NCBI RefSeq assembly: GCF_037969765.1
Contig: NZ_CP150207.1
Coordinates: 1,164,001 to 1,228,000, forward strand
DNA length: 64,000 nt
Reading direction: 5' to 3'
DNA from: Paenibacillus sp. FSL W8-0186
GTDB taxonomy: Bacteria > Bacillota > Bacilli > Paenibacillales > Paenibacillaceae
Both the position numbers and the translations under genes were made by a program. Below, in pieces: positions 8,816-17,111 of the stretch. The notes beneath the pieces are model-generated. The model worked only from the letters and a program-made list of their open reading frames with translations, was not told the DNA's origin and searched no databases. Position 1 is the stretch's first letter; every line of letters begins with the position of its first letter.

Positions 8816-10423
8816 ATGAAGAAACAGCGAAGTAATGGGGCAGCGGGCAGGAGGGAATCGGCTGGCCGTGCCTATGGATCGGCGGAACGCGAGACAGGTA
8901 TGCGCAGCTCTAATAAACGGAGCAGAAATGGAAGTCCCGGTAATTTGCATGGCGCTAGAAAGCAGGAGGCTCCAGAAATCGCCGGATTGCCTGTCAGCAA
9001 AAACGATGAAGTTGTTATCGATATCATCGGTATGAACCACGACGGCGAGGGCGTGGGCCGGGCAGATGGGTACACGCTGTTTGTAGCTGGAGCGCTTCCG
9101 GGCGAGAAGGCGCTCGTGAAGGTGTTGAAGACGAAGAAGCAGTACGGCTATGCCAAACTGCTTGAGCTGCGTGAAGCCAGCCCGGATCGTATAGCCGCGC
9201 CGTGCGGCATTTACGACAAGTGCGGCGGCTGCCAGCTGCAGCACTGGAGCTACGCGGGCCAGCTAGCTTGGAAGCGCCAGCACGTGGTCGATGCGCTGGA
9301 GCGCATCGGCAAGCTGCGCGTGGCGGCGGGGGACGCTGCTGGTGCGGTGAGCGAAGGCACCGGGGTGCTTGAAGCAGCGCTTGGCGACGAGGGCATTGTC
9401 GTGCTGCCGACGCTCGGCATGGCGGAGCCTTGGCGCTACCGCAACAAGGCTCAGGTACCGATTGGCGTGACCGACGGCGGCCTGGTGGGCGGCTTCTATG
9501 CCCGCGGCAGCCACCGCATCGTCGACATGGAGACGTGCCTGATCCAGCATGAGCATAACGATGATGTCGTCACTCGTGTGAAGGCGATCGGGGGCGAGCT
9601 CTGCATCACGGCCTACGACGAAGAGACGGGGCGAGGCCTCTTGCGCCATGTCGTCGTGAAGAAGGCTTTTCGCACCGGGGAAATGATGCTTGTCCTCGTC
9701 ACCAATGGGCAGGACATTCCGCATGTCGAGGCCTGGATCAACCTGATCCGGGAACAGCTCCCGCAGGTGGTCAGTATTTGCCAGAACATTAATACGAAGC
9801 AGACCAACGTCATCTTTGGCGACGAAACCCGCGTCCTCTGGGGACGAGACGTCATTTATGACTATATTGGTGACGTGCAGTTTGCGATCTCGGCGCGCTC
9901 TTTTTACCAAGTGAATCCGGTGCAGACTGAAGTATTGTACAGCAAGACGGTGGAATATGCAGGGCTGACCGGAAGAGAGACCGTCATCGACGCCTACTGC
10001 GGCATCGGGACGATTTCCTTGTTCCTGGCGCAGCACGCTGAACGCGTATATGGGGTAGAAATCGTCAAGGAAGCGATCGAAGACGCCCGCAGCAACGCCG
10101 AGTTGAACGGGATGAAGCATGTGACGTTTGAGGTGGGAGCTTCGGAGGATGTTATTCCACGCTGGAAGGACCAAGGCATCGAAGCCGATGTGATCGTGGT
10201 CGACCCACCGCGCAAAGGCTGCGATTCCCGCTTGCTGGAGACGATCCTGGAGATGAAGCCGGAGCGTGTCGTATATGTAAGCTGTAATCCGTCGACATTG
10301 GCCAGGGATCTGCGGATTCTGGAGGACGGCAGCTACCGGACGGTGAAGGTGCAGCCTGTGGATATGTTCCCGCATACCGTTCACGTTGAATGCTGTGCGT
10401 TGATAGTTAGAAGTAAAGAATAA
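8816..10423 (+). CDS. rlmD: 23S rRNA (uracil-5-)-methyltransferase RlmCD/RumA family
   Basis: A 535-residue S-adenosylmethionine-dependent enzyme of the TrmA/RumA group that forms 5-methyluridine in 23S rRNA. A TRAM domain covers about residues 61-120. Iron-sulfur-type cysteines are at C130, C136 and C139 (CGIYDKCGGC). The SAM-binding DAYCGIGTISLF, the VDPPRKGCD loop and the catalytic-cysteine region VSCNPSTLARDL follow in order. The first 60 residues are a basic low-complexity extension, and an insertion of about 30 residues lies after the cysteine cluster. The last 14 codons are overlapped antisense by the serine recombinase gene, marking the insertion point of the island. Confidence 0.93.
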   Translation: MKKQRSNGAAGRRESAGRAYGSAERETGMRSSNKRSRNGSPGNLHGARKQEAPEIAGLPVSKNDEVVIDIIGMNHDGEGVGRADGYTLFVAGALPGEKALVKVLKTKKQYGYAKLLELREASPDRIAAPCGIYDKCGGCQLQHWSYAGQLAWKRQHVVDALERIGKLRVAAGDAAGAVSEGTGVLEAALGDEGIVVLPTLGMAEPWRYRNKAQVPIGVTDGGLVGGFYARGSHRIVDMETCLIQHEHNDDVVTRVKAIGGELCITAYDEETGRGLLRHVVVKKAFRTGEMMLVLVTNGQDIPHVEAWINLIREQLPQVVSICQNINTKQTNVIFGDETRVLWGRDVIYDYIGDVQFAISARSFYQVNPVQTEVLYSKTVEYAGLTGRETVIDAYCGIGTISLFLAQHAERVYGVEIVKEAIEDARSNAELNGMKHVTFEVGASEDVIPRWKDQGIEADVIVVDPPRKGCDSRLLETILEMKPERVVYVSCNPSTLARDLRILEDGSYRTVKVQPVDMFPHTVHVECCALIVRSKE

Positions 10424-11871
10424 GCAGAGGGGTTCGAGAATCTGTAAAAGATTCTCGGACTCCCATCTGCTTTAATCTCGATGCGATCAATTAGTCTGTG
10501 AAGGATTTCGGGCGTTAGCTCGTCGAATAACAGTTGGGAAAATGCTAAAGTATCGTCTTGGATTTGAAGCGATTCATCGTACTGTCGCTTTTTGGACTTC
10601 AGCTCGTCTAACTCCTGATTGATCGAAGCAACATACTCATCATACTCGCTTTTTGGCATGTCTCCGTCAAAGTGCTTATCGTGTGCTTGCTTCTTTCGAT
10701 GCTTCAATTTGTCCATTTGAGAATCCAAGGCTTTGATGGCTTTTTCATTTTGTTGCTTTTGTTTCTTTAGCTGGTTTTCAAGCTTCTTAATTACCGCTTC
10801 ATTATTCAAGTTGGAAACAAGCAAACGAATATCTTGAAGAATAACGGATACCAAGTCAGCTTCACGTACAAGATGATCAGTGCATTTTTTTATTCCATGT
10901 TTATTGTAGCTACCGCACAAATAGCCTTTAACATTTTTCTTATAGTGCATTCCTCGTCCACAATCGGCACAATACGCTGTATTCGTGAACAAATGTACTT
11001 CCGATTGAGGTCTTGTACGCTTTCTACTTTCAAGCAGTTGTTGAACGACTTCAAAGTCTTTTCGTGTAATTATGGGTTCATGGGTATCCTGTACAACGAT
11101 GAAGTCTTTTGATTCCTTATAGTTTCTTTTTTTATTCGTTACACTTTTTGTTGTAGATCGGCATTGAACAAGATCGCCAACGTAATAAGGATTCGTAAGA
11201 ATTTCTCGAACTGTTGAACCTCCCCACAAATCAGAAGCATTTTTCTTTCCAGCGATTTGAGAAGGTGTAGGAATACCCTCCTCGTACAATTCACGTGCTA
11301 TACGATCATGTCCTTTTCCTGCCAAATACCCTCTAAAAATTCTTCTAACAATATCGGGTGTCGCATCATTTCTTACAAATAGCTGACCGTCTTTTACTTC
11401 ATAACCGAGTGGTGGAATCGACCCTTTAAACTCACCACGTTGAGCTTTAAGCTTAAAGGTCGTCTTCACACGATCACTAATACGCTGGGATTCCTGTTCA
11501 TACATCCAAGCATAAAGCCCGAACATATGAACATTTCTTTCCAGTGTATTAATAGCGTTGTCTAACGTAATAATCTCAAGGTTGTTATTCTGAACAACAT
11601 CTCTAATCTCGTAAGACAATCCGCCGTTTCTTGCAAGCCTCGAAAGTTCCTTAGCCAAAATCATATCGAACTTTTTGGCTTTTGCATCGGCTATAAGGCG
11701 TTGCAATACTGGACGTTTCGAAGTTGTTCCTGTTTCGATTCCGACGTAAAAGTCGAACACCGTCCACCCTCTTTCAGATACATATTTCAGAAACAGATTT
11801 CGCTGATTTTCCAACGAAGTTTTTTGTTCTTCTTTGTCGGTTGAAACTCGAACATATATTGCACATCTCAT
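10381..11871 (-). CDS. Large serine recombinase (island integrase)
   Basis: A 496-residue large serine recombinase. The resolvase catalytic domain covers residues 1-150 with nucleophile Ser10 in YVRVSTDKEE and an ELSRLAR segment. The recombinase domain is around 160-270 (IPPLGYEV, WGGSTVREILTNPYYVGD). A zinc ribbon uses C301, C304, C319 and C330, and a long charged coiled coil covers about 355-450. Its last codons lie antisense over the end of rlmCD, so the left attachment site is there. B. subtilis likewise has recombinase genes (yefB, yefC) next to yefA, the rlmCD homologue, by established gene order. Its start overlaps the upstream small gene by ATGA, implying translational coupling. Confidence 0.92.
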   Translation of the reverse strand: MRCAIYVRVSTDKEEQKTSLENQRNLFLKYVSERGWTVFDFYVGIETGTTSKRPVLQRLIADAKAKKFDMILAKELSRLARNGGLSYEIRDVVQNNNLEIITLDNAINTLERNVHMFGLYAWMYEQESQRISDRVKTTFKLKAQRGEFKGSIPPLGYEVKDGQLFVRNDATPDIVRRIFRGYLAGKGHDRIARELYEEGIPTPSQIAGKKNASDLWGGSTVREILTNPYYVGDLVQCRSTTKSVTNKKRNYKESKDFIVVQDTHEPIITRKDFEVVQQLLESRKRTRPQSEVHLFTNTAYCADCGRGMHYKKNVKGYLCGSYNKHGIKKCTDHLVREADLVSVILQDIRLLVSNLNNEAVIKKLENQLKKQKQQNEKAIKALDSQMDKLKHRKKQAHDKHFDGDMPKSEYDEYVASINQELDELKSKKRQYDESLQIQDDTLAFSQLLFDELTPEILHRLIDRIEIKADGSPRIFYRFSNPSAYSLLLTINAQHST

Positions 11872-12029
11872 GCGGCATTCTTCCCTTCGTCATGAGATGT
11901 GACTGTATTCACCTGAGTACGATCGTAATAGGACCCGATCAGGTTGTCAATTTTTTCGTCAATCAATGTTTGGATGATGTCTTCGAAAGTCAAATTGTAT
12001 TCGTTATTGAAAATTCTTTCAACTTGCAT
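11868..12029 (-). CDS. Small hypothetical protein coupled to the recombinase
   Basis: A 53-residue acidic protein beginning MQVERIFNNEYNLTFED. The start is chosen at 12029 because GGAGGAGG lies just upstream; an in-frame ATG at 12104 has no SD. Its stop overlaps the recombinase start by four bases, so the two are likely translated in sequence. No domain is recognised. Small proteins beside large serine recombinases sometimes act as directionality or accessory factors, but that role is speculative here. Confidence 0.6.
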   Translation of the reverse strand: MQVERIFNNEYNLTFEDIIQTLIDEKIDNLIGSYYDRTQVNTVTSHDEGKNAA

Positions 12030-12133
12030 TGTTATTCCTCCTCCGATTATTAAGTTTGAGTGCATGTTGGATAGTCGGAAGGATTCAATACACATTTCTT
12101 CCACAAACGAGTATGAACCGTATTTCTATCACT

Positions 12134-12168
12134 TCACCGAAGAAATCTGCAGTATTTCTTTTCGGTGA
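12134..12168. promoter_or_regulatory. Inverted repeat upstream of the recombinase operon
   Basis: TCACCGAA (12134-12141) pairs with TTCGGTGA (12161-12168), and the inner GAAAT/ATTTC arms extend the stem with a two-base bulge. It lies about 105 bp upstream of the small gene's start and could be an operator or att-proximal binding site. Confidence 0.4.
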
Positions 12169-12273
12169 TATGAGTATATGAAAAAAACAAGTCTTTGAGT
12201 TTGAAAAACGGTTCTACCCGTGTCGGAGGTTTCTTGCTTTAAAGTATTAAAGTGATATTTTGTGGTGGGATGT

Positions 12274-12305
12274 GGCTCCTATGCTTAATGCAGGGAGCCT
12301 TTTTT
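12274..12305 (+). terminator. Rho-independent terminator with no obvious upstream gene
   Basis: GGCTCC (12274-12279) and GGAGCC (12294-12299) followed by six T residues, oriented rightward. The plus-strand transcript it would end has no recognised ORF, so it may end a short RNA or be a relic. Confidence 0.55.
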
Positions 12306-12360
12306 GGCTATTTTCAACTATCTCAGTTATATCGCCATGTAGGAAATCTATAATGCAATA

Positions 12361-12570
12361 AGCGGGATGAGGGGCTTCGCTCGTCGGGAGACTTCCAACT
12401 TCACCTTCTCCCTACGGGAGTAACGGTTCAGTAGGAATCTCCATCAATTCGTTGCATTCGCCTGCGGCGACCGTTCACCTTTCGGGATTCACTATGAAAC
12501 GAATTGCGACTCGCTCGACCCTTGGGAAAGCAGTTGCCCATTCTGGGCAAGCGTCTCATTCGAGACGCAC
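12361..12570 (+). other. Hairpin-dense untranslated block, possible structured leader RNA
   Basis: A run of compact inverted repeats precedes the gene at 12616. They are CTCCC-TAC-GGGAG (12408-12420), CAATTCGTT (12445-12453) pairing with AACGAATTG (12498-12506) and enclosing TCGCC-TGC-GGCGA (12458-12470), TTGCCC/GGGCAA (12534-12550), and GCGTCTC-ATTC-GAGACGC (12551-12568). AACGGT (12422) could alternatively pair with ACCGTT (12470). The density and nesting suggest RNA structure, either a leader of the 12616 operon or a separate RNA. No known RNA family was recognised. Confidence 0.4.
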
Positions 12571-12615
12571 AAAAGCCCAAATAAACCCCATCAACTATTA
12601 AAGGAGGTAACTGTC

Positions 12616-13218
12616 ATGCCGAGAAGAAACAAGCCTTACATTACGCAATATTTTGAGCGTGACCGTAATGCATTCACCGCACTATTTCGTACTGGACATG
12701 TTAGATACGAGCATTTACTTCAATGTGGATCAACAGATTCCAGAATCAAAAATTTAATGCGAGATGGTCATTTCGAGAAGGTGTTTTACAAGCAAACTAG
12801 TGAGATCAAGGAATGTTACAAACTAACTAAATCTGGACGAGCTTTAGCATATCAGCTTTGGGGATTAGACAAGCAGTACCATGCACAAAACCCGTTGCAT
12901 GATACTGTGATTGCAGACAAGTATTTTAGCATCCCACGGGAATCTCGTGATCAGTGGGTTACGGAAAGTCAAATACGTGATAAGTTTCTGGAACGATTAG
13001 ATGAATTGAGGAATCAGGGAAAGTTAGAGGAAGCAAGGATTTATGAGGATATGCATAACAAAGGGTTAATATTGATGTCAGATGCCGTATATGTCGATGA
13101 AAACGGAACAGAAATTGCTTTCGAAGTGGTCACGAACACATACGGTCAAGAAGAAATACATGCCAAAGAAACACTTGTGAAATTAATGAATTATGGATAC
13201 GAAACATCCAAAGCGTAG
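12616..13218 (+). CDS. Hypothetical protein, winged-helix/replication-relaxation-like
   Basis: A 200-residue protein with a perfect start signal (AAAGGAGG then ATG). The N-terminal part (about 20-95) looks like a winged helix that reads a cassette such as RYEHLLQCGSTDSRIKNL. The central and C-terminal part holds YEDMHNKGLILMSDAVY and EIAFEVVTNTYGQEEI. This arrangement resembles replication-relaxation family proteins of mobile elements, where the C-terminal part is nuclease-like, but I cannot confirm catalytic residues. It forms an operon with the next gene (11-bp gap). It is AT-rich compared with the chromosome core. Confidence 0.65.
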   Translation: MPRRNKPYITQYFERDRNAFTALFRTGHVRYEHLLQCGSTDSRIKNLMRDGHFEKVFYKQTSEIKECYKLTKSGRALAYQLWGLDKQYHAQNPLHDTVIADKYFSIPRESRDQWVTESQIRDKFLERLDELRNQGKLEEARIYEDMHNKGLILMSDAVYVDENGTEIAFEVVTNTYGQEEIHAKETLVKLMNYGYETSKA

Positions 13219-13228
13219 GAGGTGAAAA

Positions 13229-14320
13229 ATGAGCAATATCAACGAAAAGAAACAACGAGTAAGTGAACGGTATCATGAGTATTTGTTTATTATCTATCAT
13301 TTTGGCAACAAGGTAATCCTCATGAAACAGCTATTCCGATACGCCCGAATTCTTGGCTTAGCTCAAAGTTATTCAGTTTTTTACAGACAAATTAAGGAAT
13401 TAGCTGAAGCCGAGATTATACGCAGAGAACCATTTACTGCTTATGGGAAAAAGACACAGCTCCATATGCTCACATTAAAGAAATTCGGAATCCGATTCAT
13501 TGAGGGTAAAGGAAGCAGTCAAAGTGTAGCGGCAGTCCCGAAATCAAATACAAATGAACGTATTCCCGTCTCGATATTCAAAAATTGTTACATCTTGAAT
13601 AAGTTAATCCCTCGAATACAACAAAAATGCCCCAATATCACCGTTGAGACAGTCATCGAATTGATTAATAAAGATCATAGTAACATTCTGGAATCAAAAA
13701 ATCAGGGCGTTGTGTTCTTGCATAATATCCTTGATTGTTCAACACTTCATCCCTACTTGAACTCTGACGAGATCAATTATGAAATCAATCGGTTAACTGA
13801 CATTAAGCAAAAACGTTTAACGGGTTTAGTGGGAGGTGCTTCGCCATCGGAATGTAAAGATCAAATATCCATGTCTCCGAAGCTTACAAAACAGGATTCT
13901 TATTCAATAGACAGTTTGATAAATGCACATGTGTATATCGCTCAAGTAAAGATCGTCCAAAACAAACCGTTAATTACTTTATTGCTGTTTGATGTTTATA
14001 ACAAGCAGGCTATTTACCGAATGACAACTCAAATCGCCTGTGCCTTTCATATGTTCGGACGTTACTTTAACGATTTTTCACTGAGAGTAGGGATTGTCGG
14101 TATCGACGAAGTTGCGTGTAGAATATTGGAATCGAAAGCAGAAACAGTAGTAAGTGATTTCTTTACAAAAGAAATAAGGGGTTCAAGATTGTCTCGTATT
14201 TTAGCAGATTGGAGAGTTAGTTCCATTGAACAGGAGCTAATTCAAATCCGATTTACGCATTATGATATAACCAACCAGTATTTGGAGGGCACTAAGCATT
14301 CCAATTTAATAAGAAAATGA
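13229..14320 (+). CDS. Hypothetical island protein, second gene of two-gene operon
   Basis: A 363-residue protein of unknown function following GTAGGAGG. Residues about 15-95 look like a winged helix (LMKQLFRYARILGLAQSYSVFYRQIKELAEAE). The middle is variable, and the C-terminal 130 residues have alternating strands and helices (HVYIAQVKIVQ, LITLLLFDVY, LRVGIVGIDE) that recall nuclease-like folds without a motif I can name. Together with the preceding gene it may be a mobilisation, replication-control or defence pair. A strong terminator follows directly. Confidence 0.6.
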   Translation: MSNINEKKQRVSERYHEYLFIIYHFGNKVILMKQLFRYARILGLAQSYSVFYRQIKELAEAEIIRREPFTAYGKKTQLHMLTLKKFGIRFIEGKGSSQSVAAVPKSNTNERIPVSIFKNCYILNKLIPRIQQKCPNITVETVIELINKDHSNILESKNQGVVFLHNILDCSTLHPYLNSDEINYEINRLTDIKQKRLTGLVGGASPSECKDQISMSPKLTKQDSYSIDSLINAHVYIAQVKIVQNKPLITLLLFDVYNKQAIYRMTTQIACAFHMFGRYFNDFSLRVGIVGIDEVACRILESKAETVVSDFFTKEIRGSRLSRILADWRVSSIEQELIQIRFTHYDITNQYLEGTKHSNLIRK

Positions 14321-14325
14321 ATCGA

Positions 14326-14360
14326 GGCAAGTCCATCATTAGAGGTGGATTTGTCTTTTT
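14326..14360 (+). terminator. Rho-independent terminator of the two-gene operon
   Basis: A 12-bp stem GGCAAGTCCATC (14326-14337) / GGTGGATTTGTC (14344-14355) with three G-T wobbles and a six-base loop, followed by a T run. Confidence 0.85.
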
Positions 14361-14428
14361 CATTTGTCAGTTATCAACTCGATTCGACTTGTATATGATA
14401 TGAGATCTTTCAAAGGAAGTGAAAAGCA

Positions 14429-14512
14429 ATGTCATACCAACTTGCAAAATCGAATAACAAAATAGTCCGTTTAAGAGATTTCGGATGTGAAAATAAAAAG
14501 CATCGGCGTTGA
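14429..14512 (+). CDS. Possible 27-codon small ORF
   Basis: ATG at 14429 preceded by AAAGGAAG at good spacing; the peptide starts MSYQLAKSNNKIV and is basic. A weak promoter (TTATCA, 17 bp, TATGAT; 14371-14399) lies upstream. It leads directly into the hairpin-rich block that follows. It could be a leader peptide or a degraded gene start; no homology is recognised. Confidence 0.25.
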   Translation: MSYQLAKSNNKIVRLRDFGCENKKHRR

Positions 14513-14529
14513 AGGTATGATCGCCTAAA

Positions 14530-14975
14530 AAGTTAACCGAGGAACTAACTCTTCCTGGCAGTGCCGTTGACGGTGGGCGTGTTTGCCTTGCAAGTTCGGT
14601 GAGGCATAGCCTGCCATAGCCGAACTTATAAAGATTTCCTTCTTTCTCATGAAGGATGTGACTGTCCTAGTTCCCGAAAGGGATAGGGGGGCAAGCAATA
14701 ATCGTGGTGATTACGGAGCGTTTGATACCAGACCTTGGCTCCGCTGAGCTTGTCGCTATTTGCGAGGCTGATGATACGGATACCTCGGCGGATTATACGC
14801 CATATTACTATCACAGCTCACCCTTGCTACGCTTAAATTAACCATTTTGGCGTAGCAGGGGGGGCATCGAGCCGTTTGCCTAACTCAAACCGCCATATTA
14901 AAAAACAACCCGATGCTGATGCATCAACTCAGCGGTTGCGTAGATAAACATTAGAAGGCGAGATGGTCGGGGAGG
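14530..14975 (+). other. GC-richer hairpin-dense block, possible structured RNA
   Basis: About 450 bp with no ORF of 60 codons, GC-richer than the flanks, holding strong stems. They are AAGTTCGG/CCGAACTT (14592-14627), CCTTC/GAAGG (14638-14655), CCTA plus TCCC-GAAA-GGGA plus TAGG with a GNRA loop (14666-14687), and a 12-bp stem CCCTTGCTACGC with GCGTAGCAGGGG (14821-14861). A 46-codon frame (14698-14838) ending in YYYHSSPLLRLN overlaps it but has a poorly spaced SD. No Rfam-type family was recognised by eye. Confidence 0.4.
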
Positions 14976-15185
14976 CAAAAAGAAATACATAATATGAATA
15001 TATCAGAGTGAATTGCATATAACATAAAATCAATAAATCAGGTGTGCTCTTTAGCACAGTTTCAAAGTTACGACGATCAACAGTATAAGCATATTATCGA
15101 GGTGTTGAGTATTCGTCATGATAGTGATCATTGCACTGTCATGGCGAATATGATTATATGTATTCTGAGGCGATTCTGGGAACTC

Positions 15186-15214
15186 TTTACAAATAGTGGT
15201 TTACAATTTATAAT
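15186..15214 (+). promoter_or_regulatory. Sigma-A promoter of the hisD leader
   Basis: TTTACA (15186-15191), a 17-bp spacer and a perfect TATAAT (15209-15214). Transcription would start near 15221, about 26 nt before the leader-peptide ATG. Confidence 0.75.
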
Positions 15215-15246
15215 ATGTCCAAGTGTGGTTAAGGGGGATATCAAAA

Positions 15247-15300
15247 ATGAACCGTTTTATATCTGTGTTAACAAAATCCTATAACCATCATCATAGTTAG
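15247..15300 (+). CDS. His-rich leader peptide of a putative histidine attenuator
   Basis: A 17-residue ORF, MNRFISVLTKSYNHHHS, with AAGGGGG nine bases before the ATG. Codons 14-16 are three successive CAT (His) codons, four codons from the stop. The ORF lies between a good promoter and alternative hairpins ending in an intrinsic terminator, directly upstream of a hisD-family gene. This is the layout of an amino-acid attenuation leader such as the enterobacterial his leader. An overlapping longer frame (15042-15284) is not favoured because it lacks an SD and any domain. Confidence 0.7.
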   Translation: MNRFISVLTKSYNHHHS

Positions 15301-15412
15301 GCGTTTGTATTACGGAATTTTTTCCGTAGGTACAAACGCTTATTGGCGTTATACCTACGGACTTGAAGCATAAGAGTCATGTAGGTATTTTTTATCCTAC
15401 ATGGCTCTTTTT
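15301..15412 (+). terminator. Attenuator region with mutually exclusive hairpins
   Basis: Segment A (15301-15317) pairs with B (15322-15339) through GCGTTTGTA/TACAAACGC and TACGGAA/TTCCGTA. B can instead pair with C through CCGTAGGTA (15324-15332) / TACCTACGG (15352-15360). C can also pair with D through ATACCTAC (15351-15358) / GTAGGTAT (15381-15388). D with E forms the terminator, a 13-bp stem (15373-15385 / 15396-15408) followed by T residues. A ribosome at the leader stop would mask A, giving B:C and the terminator. A ribosome stalled on the His codons would leave A free, giving A:B and C:D antitermination. The switching logic is inference. Confidence 0.65.
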
Positions 15413-15440
15413 GTTTATAAAAAATTGGAGGTAGAAAGAA

Positions 15441-16757
15441 ATGCAAAATTCAAGCATTATATTCGAGGTCCCAGAACAGAATGAACTACTTACAGAGCGT
15501 TTCAAAACACATAAAACGCTATTCAACAGAGATGTACTTTATGGAGTATTATCAATTTTCGATGAGGTGGCCAATAAGGGCGATGAAGGAATCAGAAGTA
15601 TGACAACGAAGTATGATGAAGTTGATTTGGATGAGCTGGTTCTTTCAAATGATTATGTTGAAGGATGCATATCTTCGCTGTCGCCGTCATTACGCTCAGC
15701 TGTAGAACAAGCAATTAGAAATGTGCGAGATGCTAATTTAGCTATGTTACCGCAAACGTGGGAAAAGCAAATTAGACCTGGAACAGTAATCGGTGAAAAT
15801 GTGGTTCCCTTAGATTCGGTAGGTATATGGATACCAGCAAGGAAAGGACCATTAATTTCTACTGCAATAATGCTGGTTGTAGCGGCAAAAACAGCAGGTG
15901 TTAAGAAAATCGTTGTGGGTATGCCCCCATTAAAAAATGGACTTGGAGACCAAGGAACGGTAGCGGCGGCAAAGCTTGCGGGAGCGGATCAATTTGTGAT
16001 CGGCAACGGAGTATCAATAATTTCTGGGTTTGCACAAGGTACAAATTCCATTCCAGAAGTTGATGGGATTTATGGACCAGGACCAGGTGGAATTGCGGCG
16101 GCAATGAGTGTAGCAATGACATATGGTAAAAAGAGTGTATTAGGCATCGGTCCAACCGAATGTGTAATATTTGCAGACGAAACTGCCGATCCGCTAAAAA
16201 TAGCTTATGATTTAATCAATGAAGGGGAGCATGGTCCCGATTCTTCTTCTATTCTGGTCACAACTTCTATAAACCTTGCCTGTAAAGTAGAAACTCTCCT
16301 TTGGAAATGTATTGGCGAGGTCGAAGAAAAACGGAGACAATACTTAAATAATGTCTTTGGTTCTAACGGTAAGGGAGCAATCGTTGTTGCATCAGAAATT
16401 GACGAAGCTTTTGATTTTATTAATTGGTTTGCACCAGAACATTTGATGATTGTTTGTGATAAAGAAACTGAGAATCGTGCTTTGACCAGTATAAACAACG
16501 CAGGTGAAATTCTTATCGGCGAATACACACCTTTTTCGGCGGCTAACTACGGGATAGGAATTACAGCAGTATTGCCGACTAACCATTTTGCAAGAGCCTT
16601 TTCTGGTGTAACATCTAAGGATATGGTGAAGTATTCAACAATCGGAAGACTGAGTAAGGATGCTTTACAAGAAATATATCCGATAATTAAAGAGATGGGG
16701 AATTACGAACAATTACCTTGTCACGTAAAAGCGGCTGATATAAGATTGCTTGAATAG
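15441..16757 (+). CDS. hisD: Histidinol dehydrogenase family protein
   Basis: A 438-residue HisD-family NAD-dependent dehydrogenase, standalone, with SD GGAGG. The catalytic Glu-His pair is present (E333, H334 in APEHL). Of the four zinc-ligand positions, two are kept (H264 in EGEHGPD, H428 in PCHVKAAD) and two are changed: Glu261 for the usual Gln and Asn369 for the usual Asp. The GPGN-Y-AK cofactor segment reads GPGPGGIAAAM. These changes suggest an altered metal site or substrate, as in HisD paralogues acting on other alcohols. The His leader upstream argues for a link to histidine. No other his genes are nearby and the gene is AT-rich, consistent with horizontal acquisition. Confidence 0.8.
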   Translation: MQNSSIIFEVPEQNELLTERFKTHKTLFNRDVLYGVLSIFDEVANKGDEGIRSMTTKYDEVDLDELVLSNDYVEGCISSLSPSLRSAVEQAIRNVRDANLAMLPQTWEKQIRPGTVIGENVVPLDSVGIWIPARKGPLISTAIMLVVAAKTAGVKKIVVGMPPLKNGLGDQGTVAAAKLAGADQFVIGNGVSIISGFAQGTNSIPEVDGIYGPGPGGIAAAMSVAMTYGKKSVLGIGPTECVIFADETADPLKIAYDLINEGEHGPDSSSILVTTSINLACKVETLLWKCIGEVEEKRRQYLNNVFGSNGKGAIVVASEIDEAFDFINWFAPEHLMIVCDKETENRALTSINNAGEILIGEYTPFSAANYGIGITAVLPTNHFARAFSGVTSKDMVKYSTIGRLSKDALQEIYPIIKEMGNYEQLPCHVKAADIRLLE

Positions 16758-17111
16758 GTGAATACAGCTACATCGTATTAGGTTATTCTACCATCAGCAC
16801 TCATCCCACGTAGAATCGGTGGCTTTGTTGGTGAGGGATGATACAGATCGCTGAGAGTGCAGTGGAGCGGGTTTGGAGAGTAGTACAGGTGAGAAGAAAA
16901 TGTGAAACAGAGGCGGTAAAATAGTAGAATTGACTGATCGTTGACGAAATCAATAGGTTAGTTTGAATACATTTAACGTTAAGTCCGTTTGCTAAAGGGA
17001 AGGTACACTCCTCGGAAAAATGAGGGGGGTACCTTTTTCTTGTATACTTAAAATATCATGAGGACACGTCCGCTTGATTGGAATGTGAAGAATGCAAGGT
17101 CAATATCATGA
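16758..17111 (+). other. Gap after hisD with one terminator
   Basis: No gene seen. An intrinsic terminator at 17000-17038 (AAGGTAC arms, inner CTC/GAGG, T run) is the only clear signal and could end the hisD transcript about 240 bp after its stop. The stretch around 16850-16900 has a coding-like look but no usable frame. Confidence 0.5.

Follow-up and report, generated by a model that had tools for sequence, protein, structure and literature searches.

In the his attenuator of enteric bacteria (Rfam family RF00514), a ribosome that stalls at tandem His codons selects between a terminator and an antiterminator; the segments of this leader are even in number, and transcription terminates if the leader is left untranslated. 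Amino-acid attenuators are also known for spare, drug-resistant synthetases, e.g. an indolmycin-resistant TrpRS of Streptomyces. Closer to the present case, a His leader peptide was predicted in 2010 before hisS* and hisZ in Bacilli (Naville and Gautheret, PMC2965389), and in 2022 candidate attenuators of his operons were reported for the B. cereus group, the Peptostreptococcaceae with Lutispora and the Erysipelotrichales (PMC9413887). As far as its accessible text goes, the latter study puts Paenibacillus under HisR regulons and contains no stand-alone hisD paralog; the terms 'hisD' and 'histidinol' are absent from the main text of the former. Among the PMC literature matches listed, no paper connects a hisD paralog with a His leader.

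The locus described here is a putative attenuator that precedes hisD2, a stand-alone gene of the HisD family in Paenibacillus sp. FSL W8-0186. Judged by its sequence, the hisD2 leader appears to belong to the hisS*/hisZ type of Bacilli, as it has tandem His codons, a terminator with a mutually exclusive antiterminator, and homology to such leaders. With the leaders of PMC2965389, which according to the accessible text are common to two hisS paralogs, it shares the short ORF containing consecutive His codons, the terminator and the occurrence in Bacilli, and a model (R1, see below) links the leaders of hisD2 to those of hisS and hisZ by sequence and structure. In contrast, the gene that it would control is of the HisD family and is carried by a mobile element in Paenibacillus and relatives. 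The attenuators of PMC9413887 likewise have a His-codon run (three to five codons in their case) and a terminator with an antiterminator, but in the accessible text they control his operons. As in the enteric system, stalling at tandem His codons would select between terminator and antiterminator; however, the hisD2 leader has five segments, its His codons adjoin the stop codon, and a stalled ribosome would leave the first segment free instead of covering it. Like the attenuators of spare synthetases, the leader would sense uncharged tRNA and induce a rescue gene, although the gene encodes a dehydrogenase in our case. Since a His leader before hisS*/hisZ was predicted in 2010, the attenuator class is already known. 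The preliminary description of this DNA had considered such control of a lone hisD to be novel, and this claim has to be narrowed in view of the Firmicutes His leader peptides predicted in 2010 and 2022 (PMC2965389 and PMC9413887, accessible text): what is new is that the target is hisD2, that this gene is carried on a 6.4-kb serine-recombinase element, and that the leader has five-segment parity.

The window, i.e. the whole 64,000-nucleotide stretch of DNA that was analysed, contains the following parts of the putative attenuator:

15186..15214, + strand: promoter TTTACA-17-TATAAT (-35 TTTACA at 15186-15191, 17-bp spacer, -10 TATAAT at 15209-15214)
15231..15237, + strand: Shine-Dalgarno sequence AAGGGGG of the leader ORF, by direct reading
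15247..15300, + strand: leader peptide ORF of 17 codons, MNRFISVLTKSYNHHHS (ATG at 15247, stop TAG at 15298-15300)
15286..15294, + strand: His codons CAT CAT CAT, the proposed sensor; the peptide ends His-His-His-Ser-stop
15298..15317, + strand: segment A, which begins within the leader stop codon; partner of B
15322..15342, + strand: segment B, partner of A or C
15345..15364, + strand: segment C, partner of B or D
15372..15388, + strand: segment D, partner of C or E
15393..15409, + strand: segment E, 3' arm of the predicted intrinsic terminator, with a T-rich tract directly after it
15441..16757, + strand: hisD2, stand-alone HisD-family dehydrogenase of 438 aa with a divergent zinc site

The promoter, the Shine-Dalgarno sequence and the 17-codon leader with three CAT codons near its stop, all named in the preliminary description, can be read directly in 15186-15440. 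Local folding gives -26.0 kcal/mol for the A:B stem (15298-15317/15322-15342), -23.3 kcal/mol for B:C (15323-15340/15345-15361), -15.7 kcal/mol for C:D (15351-15364/15374-15388) and -20.9 kcal/mol for the terminator D:E (15372-15387/15393-15409). Neighbouring helices use common strands, so A:B and C:D are incompatible with B:C and D:E. The mutually exclusive stems A:B, B:C and C:D proposed earlier are thus borne out by folding as well as by the alignment of 26 leaders discussed below. The terminator stem with its T residues is also present; it has 14 contiguous pairs plus 2, not the 13 bp given before. The region 15225-15440 folds with z = -6.15, and none of 200 dinucleotide shuffles was equally stable. 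An Rfam scan of the window found no family at gathering score, the enteric His_leader RF00514 included, and T-box control was set aside, as no T-box matched at gathering score in the window or in seven further loci, including the regions upstream of hisS and hisZ in genome G000. An imperfect palindrome round CATGATAGTGATCATTGCACTGTCATG lies just 5' of the -35 box (window ~15112-15151) and may be an operator or a terminator remnant. Loci L004, L014 and L019 have it 5' of the promoter as well. Its 15-nt arms are 93% complementary in L004; in the window, L014 and L019 it escaped the repeat finder.

Very probably, this leader acts by ribosome-mediated transcription attenuation: it would gauge how much charged tRNA-His is available and thereby control one mobile gene only, hisD2. 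If tRNA-His is charged, the ribosome would reach the leader stop and cover segment A; B:C would form, D would be left free for E, and transcription would end before hisD2. If charged tRNA-His is short, the ribosome would stall once His codon 1 occupies the A site, leaving segment A free. A:B and C:D would then form, the terminator would come too late and hisD2 would be transcribed. With no ribosome on the five-segment leader, readthrough would be the default. This follows from the number of segments: five segments would make a ribosome necessary for switching hisD2 off.

Masked folding of the RNA up to 15362 gave P(A:B) = 0.96 without a ribosome and 0.92 with His codon 1 in the A site (edge at 15298), while a ribosome at least one codon beyond His1 reduced P(A:B) to 0.00 and gave P(B:C) = 0.96-0.97. 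With the RNA extended to 15390, A:B was partly back at His2 (0.74) and His3 (0.82). For a ribosome positioned at the stop, the equilibrium favoured C:D (0.95) over B:C (0.36). Passing from B:C to this C:D fold requires a barrier of only 4.7-6.1 kcal/mol to be crossed; for the step from A:B + C:D to A:B + D:E it is 13.3 kcal/mol. In the full-length RNA with segment E, D:E is favoured at equilibrium under every mask, and antitermination must therefore be kinetic. A coarse helix-level co-transcriptional model was used (40 nt/s, k0 of 1e6, downstream edge of the ribosome at +15, +18 or +21 from the P-site codon). Over 26 leaders, the mean terminator probability in these coarse kinetics was 0.01, 0.05 and 0.44 for the three edges with the ribosome stalled at His codon 1, and 0.53, 0.64 and 0.96 with the ribosome at the stop. 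The window's own leader, with the ribosome at the stop, gave 0.17, 0.17 and 1.00; in a finer kinetic run, the value was 0.00 with the mask ending at 15310, 0.12 at 15313 and 0.95 at 15316. Strong termination of this leader is thus predicted only with a generous ribosome footprint, and the direction fits the proposed logic. It is also the direction foreseen in the preliminary description, where stalling on His leads through A:B + C:D to readthrough and a ribosome at the stop leads to termination. Without a ribosome, the window leader reads through in the kinetic model.

A search for homologs of HisD2 gave hits in 10 of 195 relatives (E<=1e-100) and, within the order, in 21 of 392 genomes (E<=1e-130), the window's own genome being counted in both cases, and on 7 named genome contigs besides the genome searches. 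We compared 30 hisD2 loci, which comprise 28 distinct ones with the window included, as two are duplicates (L020 = L014, L022 = L018). The leader is directly 5' of hisD2 in 27 of the 28 distinct loci of Paenibacillus and relatives and so is not a chance feature of the window. Twenty-six of these leaders form the alignment A2, from which L007, L012 and the two duplicates were left out; L012 is a partial hisD2 with the leader directly upstream. The exception is L007 (genome G163), where the adjacent leader is absent and a hisS2-type leader, MNTIVLNQLHHHHKQR, is found ~660 nt 5' of hisD2 and is separated from it by an ORF on the opposite strand. This orphan His leader might point to the replacement of a hisS2 unit.

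Three consecutive His codons, one Ser, Thr or Arg codon and then the stop are found in 25 of the 26 aligned leaders; L010 has two His codons only, and its peptide ends in HHDRPGV. HHH-(S/T/R)-stop is therefore the constant part of the peptide (25/26), the N-terminal part drifts, and the His codons themselves vary between CAT and CAC. A strict promoter pattern occurs in 24 of the 30 loci (the two duplicates included), 23 times with a 17-bp spacer. Homologous leaders lacking the His codons or the alternative stems had been named as the case against attenuation, and none was seen among the hisD2 leaders, save L010 with its two His codons and L007.

The stems are conserved as well: the proportion of paired cells in A2 is 88.0% for A:B, 94.5% for B:C, 92.5% for C:D and 94.2% for D:E, as compared to 30-61% in a control with slid versions of the stems. 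The comparison of homologous leaders proposed at the outset thus shows 26 leaders that keep His codons, with compensatory changes in each stem (5, 3, 3 and 6 pairs with two-sided change in A:B, B:C, C:D and D:E, respectively). The covariation score was matched by 0 (A:B), 3 (B:C), 0 (C:D) and 0 (D:E) of 500 shuffles, which ignore relatedness. By the count of two-sided changes, which shuffles matched in 60/500 (A:B), 45/500 (B:C), 80/500 (C:D) and 0/500 (D:E) cases, only D:E is exceptional and the other three stems are not.

The same leader is found before hisS- and hisZ-like genes. The model R1, built from the hisD2 leaders with A:B and D:E only, had matches in 54 of the 392 genomes searched in the order and in 35 of the 398 searched in the class (E<=0.01). 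In the order search it matched at hisD2 in 20 of the 21 hisD2 genomes; G163 was absent from the matches. There were 79 matches outside hisD2 (E<=0.01, an antisense match of the window's leader excluded), of which 49 were inspected; the remaining 30 all score <=32 bits. A His-run leader was present in 30 of the 49, and all 30 lie directly 5' of an ORF that is hisS-like (28 loci: L050, L053-L058, L060, L101, L063-L080, L082) or hisZ-like (L081 and L083), with R1 scores of 37.5-99.1 bits. Ten of the 30 downstream ORFs were tested against NCBIfam: seven score above the hisS cut-off; L053, a partial frame, stays below it, and the best match of both L081 and L083 is hisZ, below the hisZ cut-off. B:C and C:D, which are outside R1, fold in the 28 hisS-type leaders as judged by eye from per-leader folds, C:D being short (~six pairs) in several of them; the same folds are not clear in the two hisZ leaders.

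A search with TIGR00442 in 16 genomes with a leader-hisS2 unit found the main HisS, HisS2 and HisZ each in one piece in 14, and split pieces in G294 and G032; the main HisS scores ~490-530 bits and HisS2 ~305-370 bits. The window genome has HisS and HisZ only. Four hisS2 genes of hisD2-bearing genomes (L114-L117), not listed by R1, also have a leader of the form ..QLHH(H/Y)KxR, which is HHY in L114. The 19 inspected matches that lack a His-run leader (L059, L061, L062, L084-L091, L102-L109) were set aside as terminators or chance; L084 among them has a broken hisS2-like gene behind it. Four of these (L059, L103, L104 and L107) have terminators much like D:E (AAGAGTCATGTAGG...) and no His codons, and are perhaps another attenuator family; in L059, L103 and L104 an ABC-transporter ATPase-like ORF follows the terminator.

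These leaders bear on a second reading, in which hisD2 answers to translation stress in general. The leader reads through in the model when no ribosome is present, so hisD2 would be induced by any drug or shortage that slows leader translation, and the His codons would merely set the stall position. We regard this as improbable, since the peptide is constant in its His codons, which undergo synonymous changes, and since the same type of leader precedes HisRS- and HisZ-like genes.

The preliminary description had assigned the downstream gene to the hisD family. The assignment itself stands, as the product scores 315.3 bits against TIGR00069 (cut-off 243.8) and 316.6 bits against PF00815, but by its sequence it appears to be a divergent HisD paralog rather than a plain HisD. 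The AlphaFold model has a pLDDT of 87.3, with low confidence for residues 371-390 (including A376), and the best PDB matches of the predicted structure are HisD proteins, so the predicted fold is that of HisD. We take the zinc ligands of E. coli HisD to be Gln259, His262, Asp360 and His419, and by alignment their equivalents in HisD2 are E261, H264, N369 and H428; the canonical set is thus altered by Q259 to E and D360 to N. The ligand types Gln, His, Asp and His are those given for HisD in the accessible text of PMC11382572. The 8000 best candidates were scored against HisD2, giving 3418 protein hits; among the best 120 of these, E is found at the Q259 site in 120/120 and N at the D360 site in 118/120, the other 2 being gapped. 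Further changes, constant in the aligned subfamily, are H367 to A (A376) and G134/S135 to R/K, while E326/H327, H262, E414 and H419 are kept as E333/H334, H264, E423 and H428. In addition, hisD2 differs from canonical hisD in not being part of a his operon. HisD2 is also unlike HpsN, a DHPS-3-dehydrogenase with the motif G-R-Y-A/S-H (PMC11382572, accessible text): it lacks this motif, has A-R-K-G-P-L at 133-138 instead, and has the altered Gln/Asp zinc pair. As both zinc and substrate residues differ from those of HisD, histidinol may not be the substrate of HisD2.

The main rival reading of its role is that of a spare histidinol dehydrogenase, induced by histidine starvation as a back-up for the final pathway step. 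The predicted HisD fold, a score above the TIGR00069 cut-off and the conservation of E333/H334, H264, E423 and H428 would all suit such a role. The residue changes that are constant in the aligned subfamily (Q259E, D360N, H367A and R/K at 134/135) speak against it, and so does the presence of a canonical hisD in all 10 genomes searched (unbroken in 9) and in the his operon of the window genome itself; moreover, a lone enzyme without its pathway would hardly relieve starvation. The broken copy is that of G049, a single-contig genome in whose his operon (L112) hisD is split between two frames, while the homologs of the other tested his-operon genes are each matched in one piece and hisD2 is open and has its leader. 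The split gene fits a spare HisD, an auxotroph or a sequence error. Taken together, we find the back-up role rather unlikely.

The unit of leader and gene is carried on what appears to be a serine-recombinase integrative element, as indicated by its recombinase, its repeats and its presence at the same site in a second host:

10382..16806, no strand assigned: putative integrative element of 6425 bp with flanking repeats and the attenuator-hisD2 unit as cargo
10382-10392 and 16807-16817, no strand assigned: flanking repeats, CACGTTGAATG and CACGTAGAATC, respectively
10381..11871, - strand: serine recombinase of the element, 496 aa, with Resolvase, Recombinase and Zn_ribbon_recom domains over cut-off

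The recombinase also has matches below cut-off to the XisF and CcrA/B/C models (Ccr = SCCmec), and two further ORFs of the element (12616-13218 and 13229-14320) had no match in Pfam or NCBIfam. The element sits in the 3' end of gene 8816-10423, which from its sequence is presumably an RNA (uracil) methyltransferase-like gene. The displaced 3' end of this gene seems to follow the right repeat, and the 3' end of the same methyltransferase-like gene is followed by hisS2 in G191 (L114) and by hisD2 in G049 (L004). A genome of the same species, G343, has no hisD2 match, and its homology to the window stops at 10374. In P. contaminans (G281, L014) the element is at the identical site with 90% DNA identity over 6.3 kb, and in six other loci homology to the window runs from 15112-15186 to 16744-16808, indicating that promoter, leader and hisD2 travel as one unit. 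HisD2 of the window genome is 94-95% identical to that of G281 or G049; the canonical HisD is 72% identical in G281 and 65-78% in two pieces in G049.

With such mobility, the conservation of the leader might reflect the recent horizontal spread of one cassette and not selection on regulation. Close copies do occur across genera (92-95% protein identity), and the whole element is common to the window and P. contaminans at 90% DNA identity. We nevertheless judge this very improbable: leaders before HisD2 proteins of only 60-63% identity have retained both the His codons and the stems, the latter showing compensatory changes, and a deep set of leaders with intact promoter and terminator but no His codons was not seen.

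Returning to attenuation by tRNA-His supply, its combination with the sharing of the leader with spare HisRS genes, single-gene mobile carriage and the altered substrate site suggests rescue from a block in histidine charging. L-histidinol is a classical inhibitor of HisRS, and HisD2 perhaps oxidises a histidinol-like inhibitor. That HisD2 serves as a rescue when tRNA-His charging is blocked, by acting on a histidinol-like or histidine-derived compound, is the purpose that we favour over the others; it is plausible, though we stop just short of calling it probable. If HisD2 removes a poison of HisRS, the cassettes would mark a class of natural inhibitors yet to be found. A known, little-studied attenuator of Bacilli is now tied to mobile hisD2, and the theme in common with hisS2 would be lost tRNA-His charging. 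More tentatively, and with some doubt, we speculate that the five-segment, default-on His-codon attenuator might be a portable sensor of blocked HisRS, shuffled between single-gene rescue units, i.e. either an additional HisRS or HisD2, a new dehydrogenase that would destroy a natural, histidinol-like poison of HisRS. This would predict an undescribed natural inhibitor of HisRS. It should be possible now to address directly both the function of a five-segment leader with terminal His codons as a default-on switch and the question of what HisD2 oxidises.

As regards the spread of hisD2, carriage by plasmids or viruses was considered and set aside, given a single plasmid hit at just 35% identity and no viral locus. 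A search beyond the order was equally unproductive, as the only HisD2 in 299 phylum genomes (E<=1e-100) was the window's own; two records named Deltaproteobacteria MAG (53-55% identity) are among the best 120 of the 3418 protein hits. Ten flanking proteins from the seven named loci belong to different families. A WYL-type regulator lies 0.7-2.3 kb 3' of hisD2 in three of these seven loci (L014:7012-7998, L019:8340-9299 and L018:8680-9666), the regulators being 51-78% identical, and near it L014 and L019 have a further 1.7 kb in common at 81% DNA identity.
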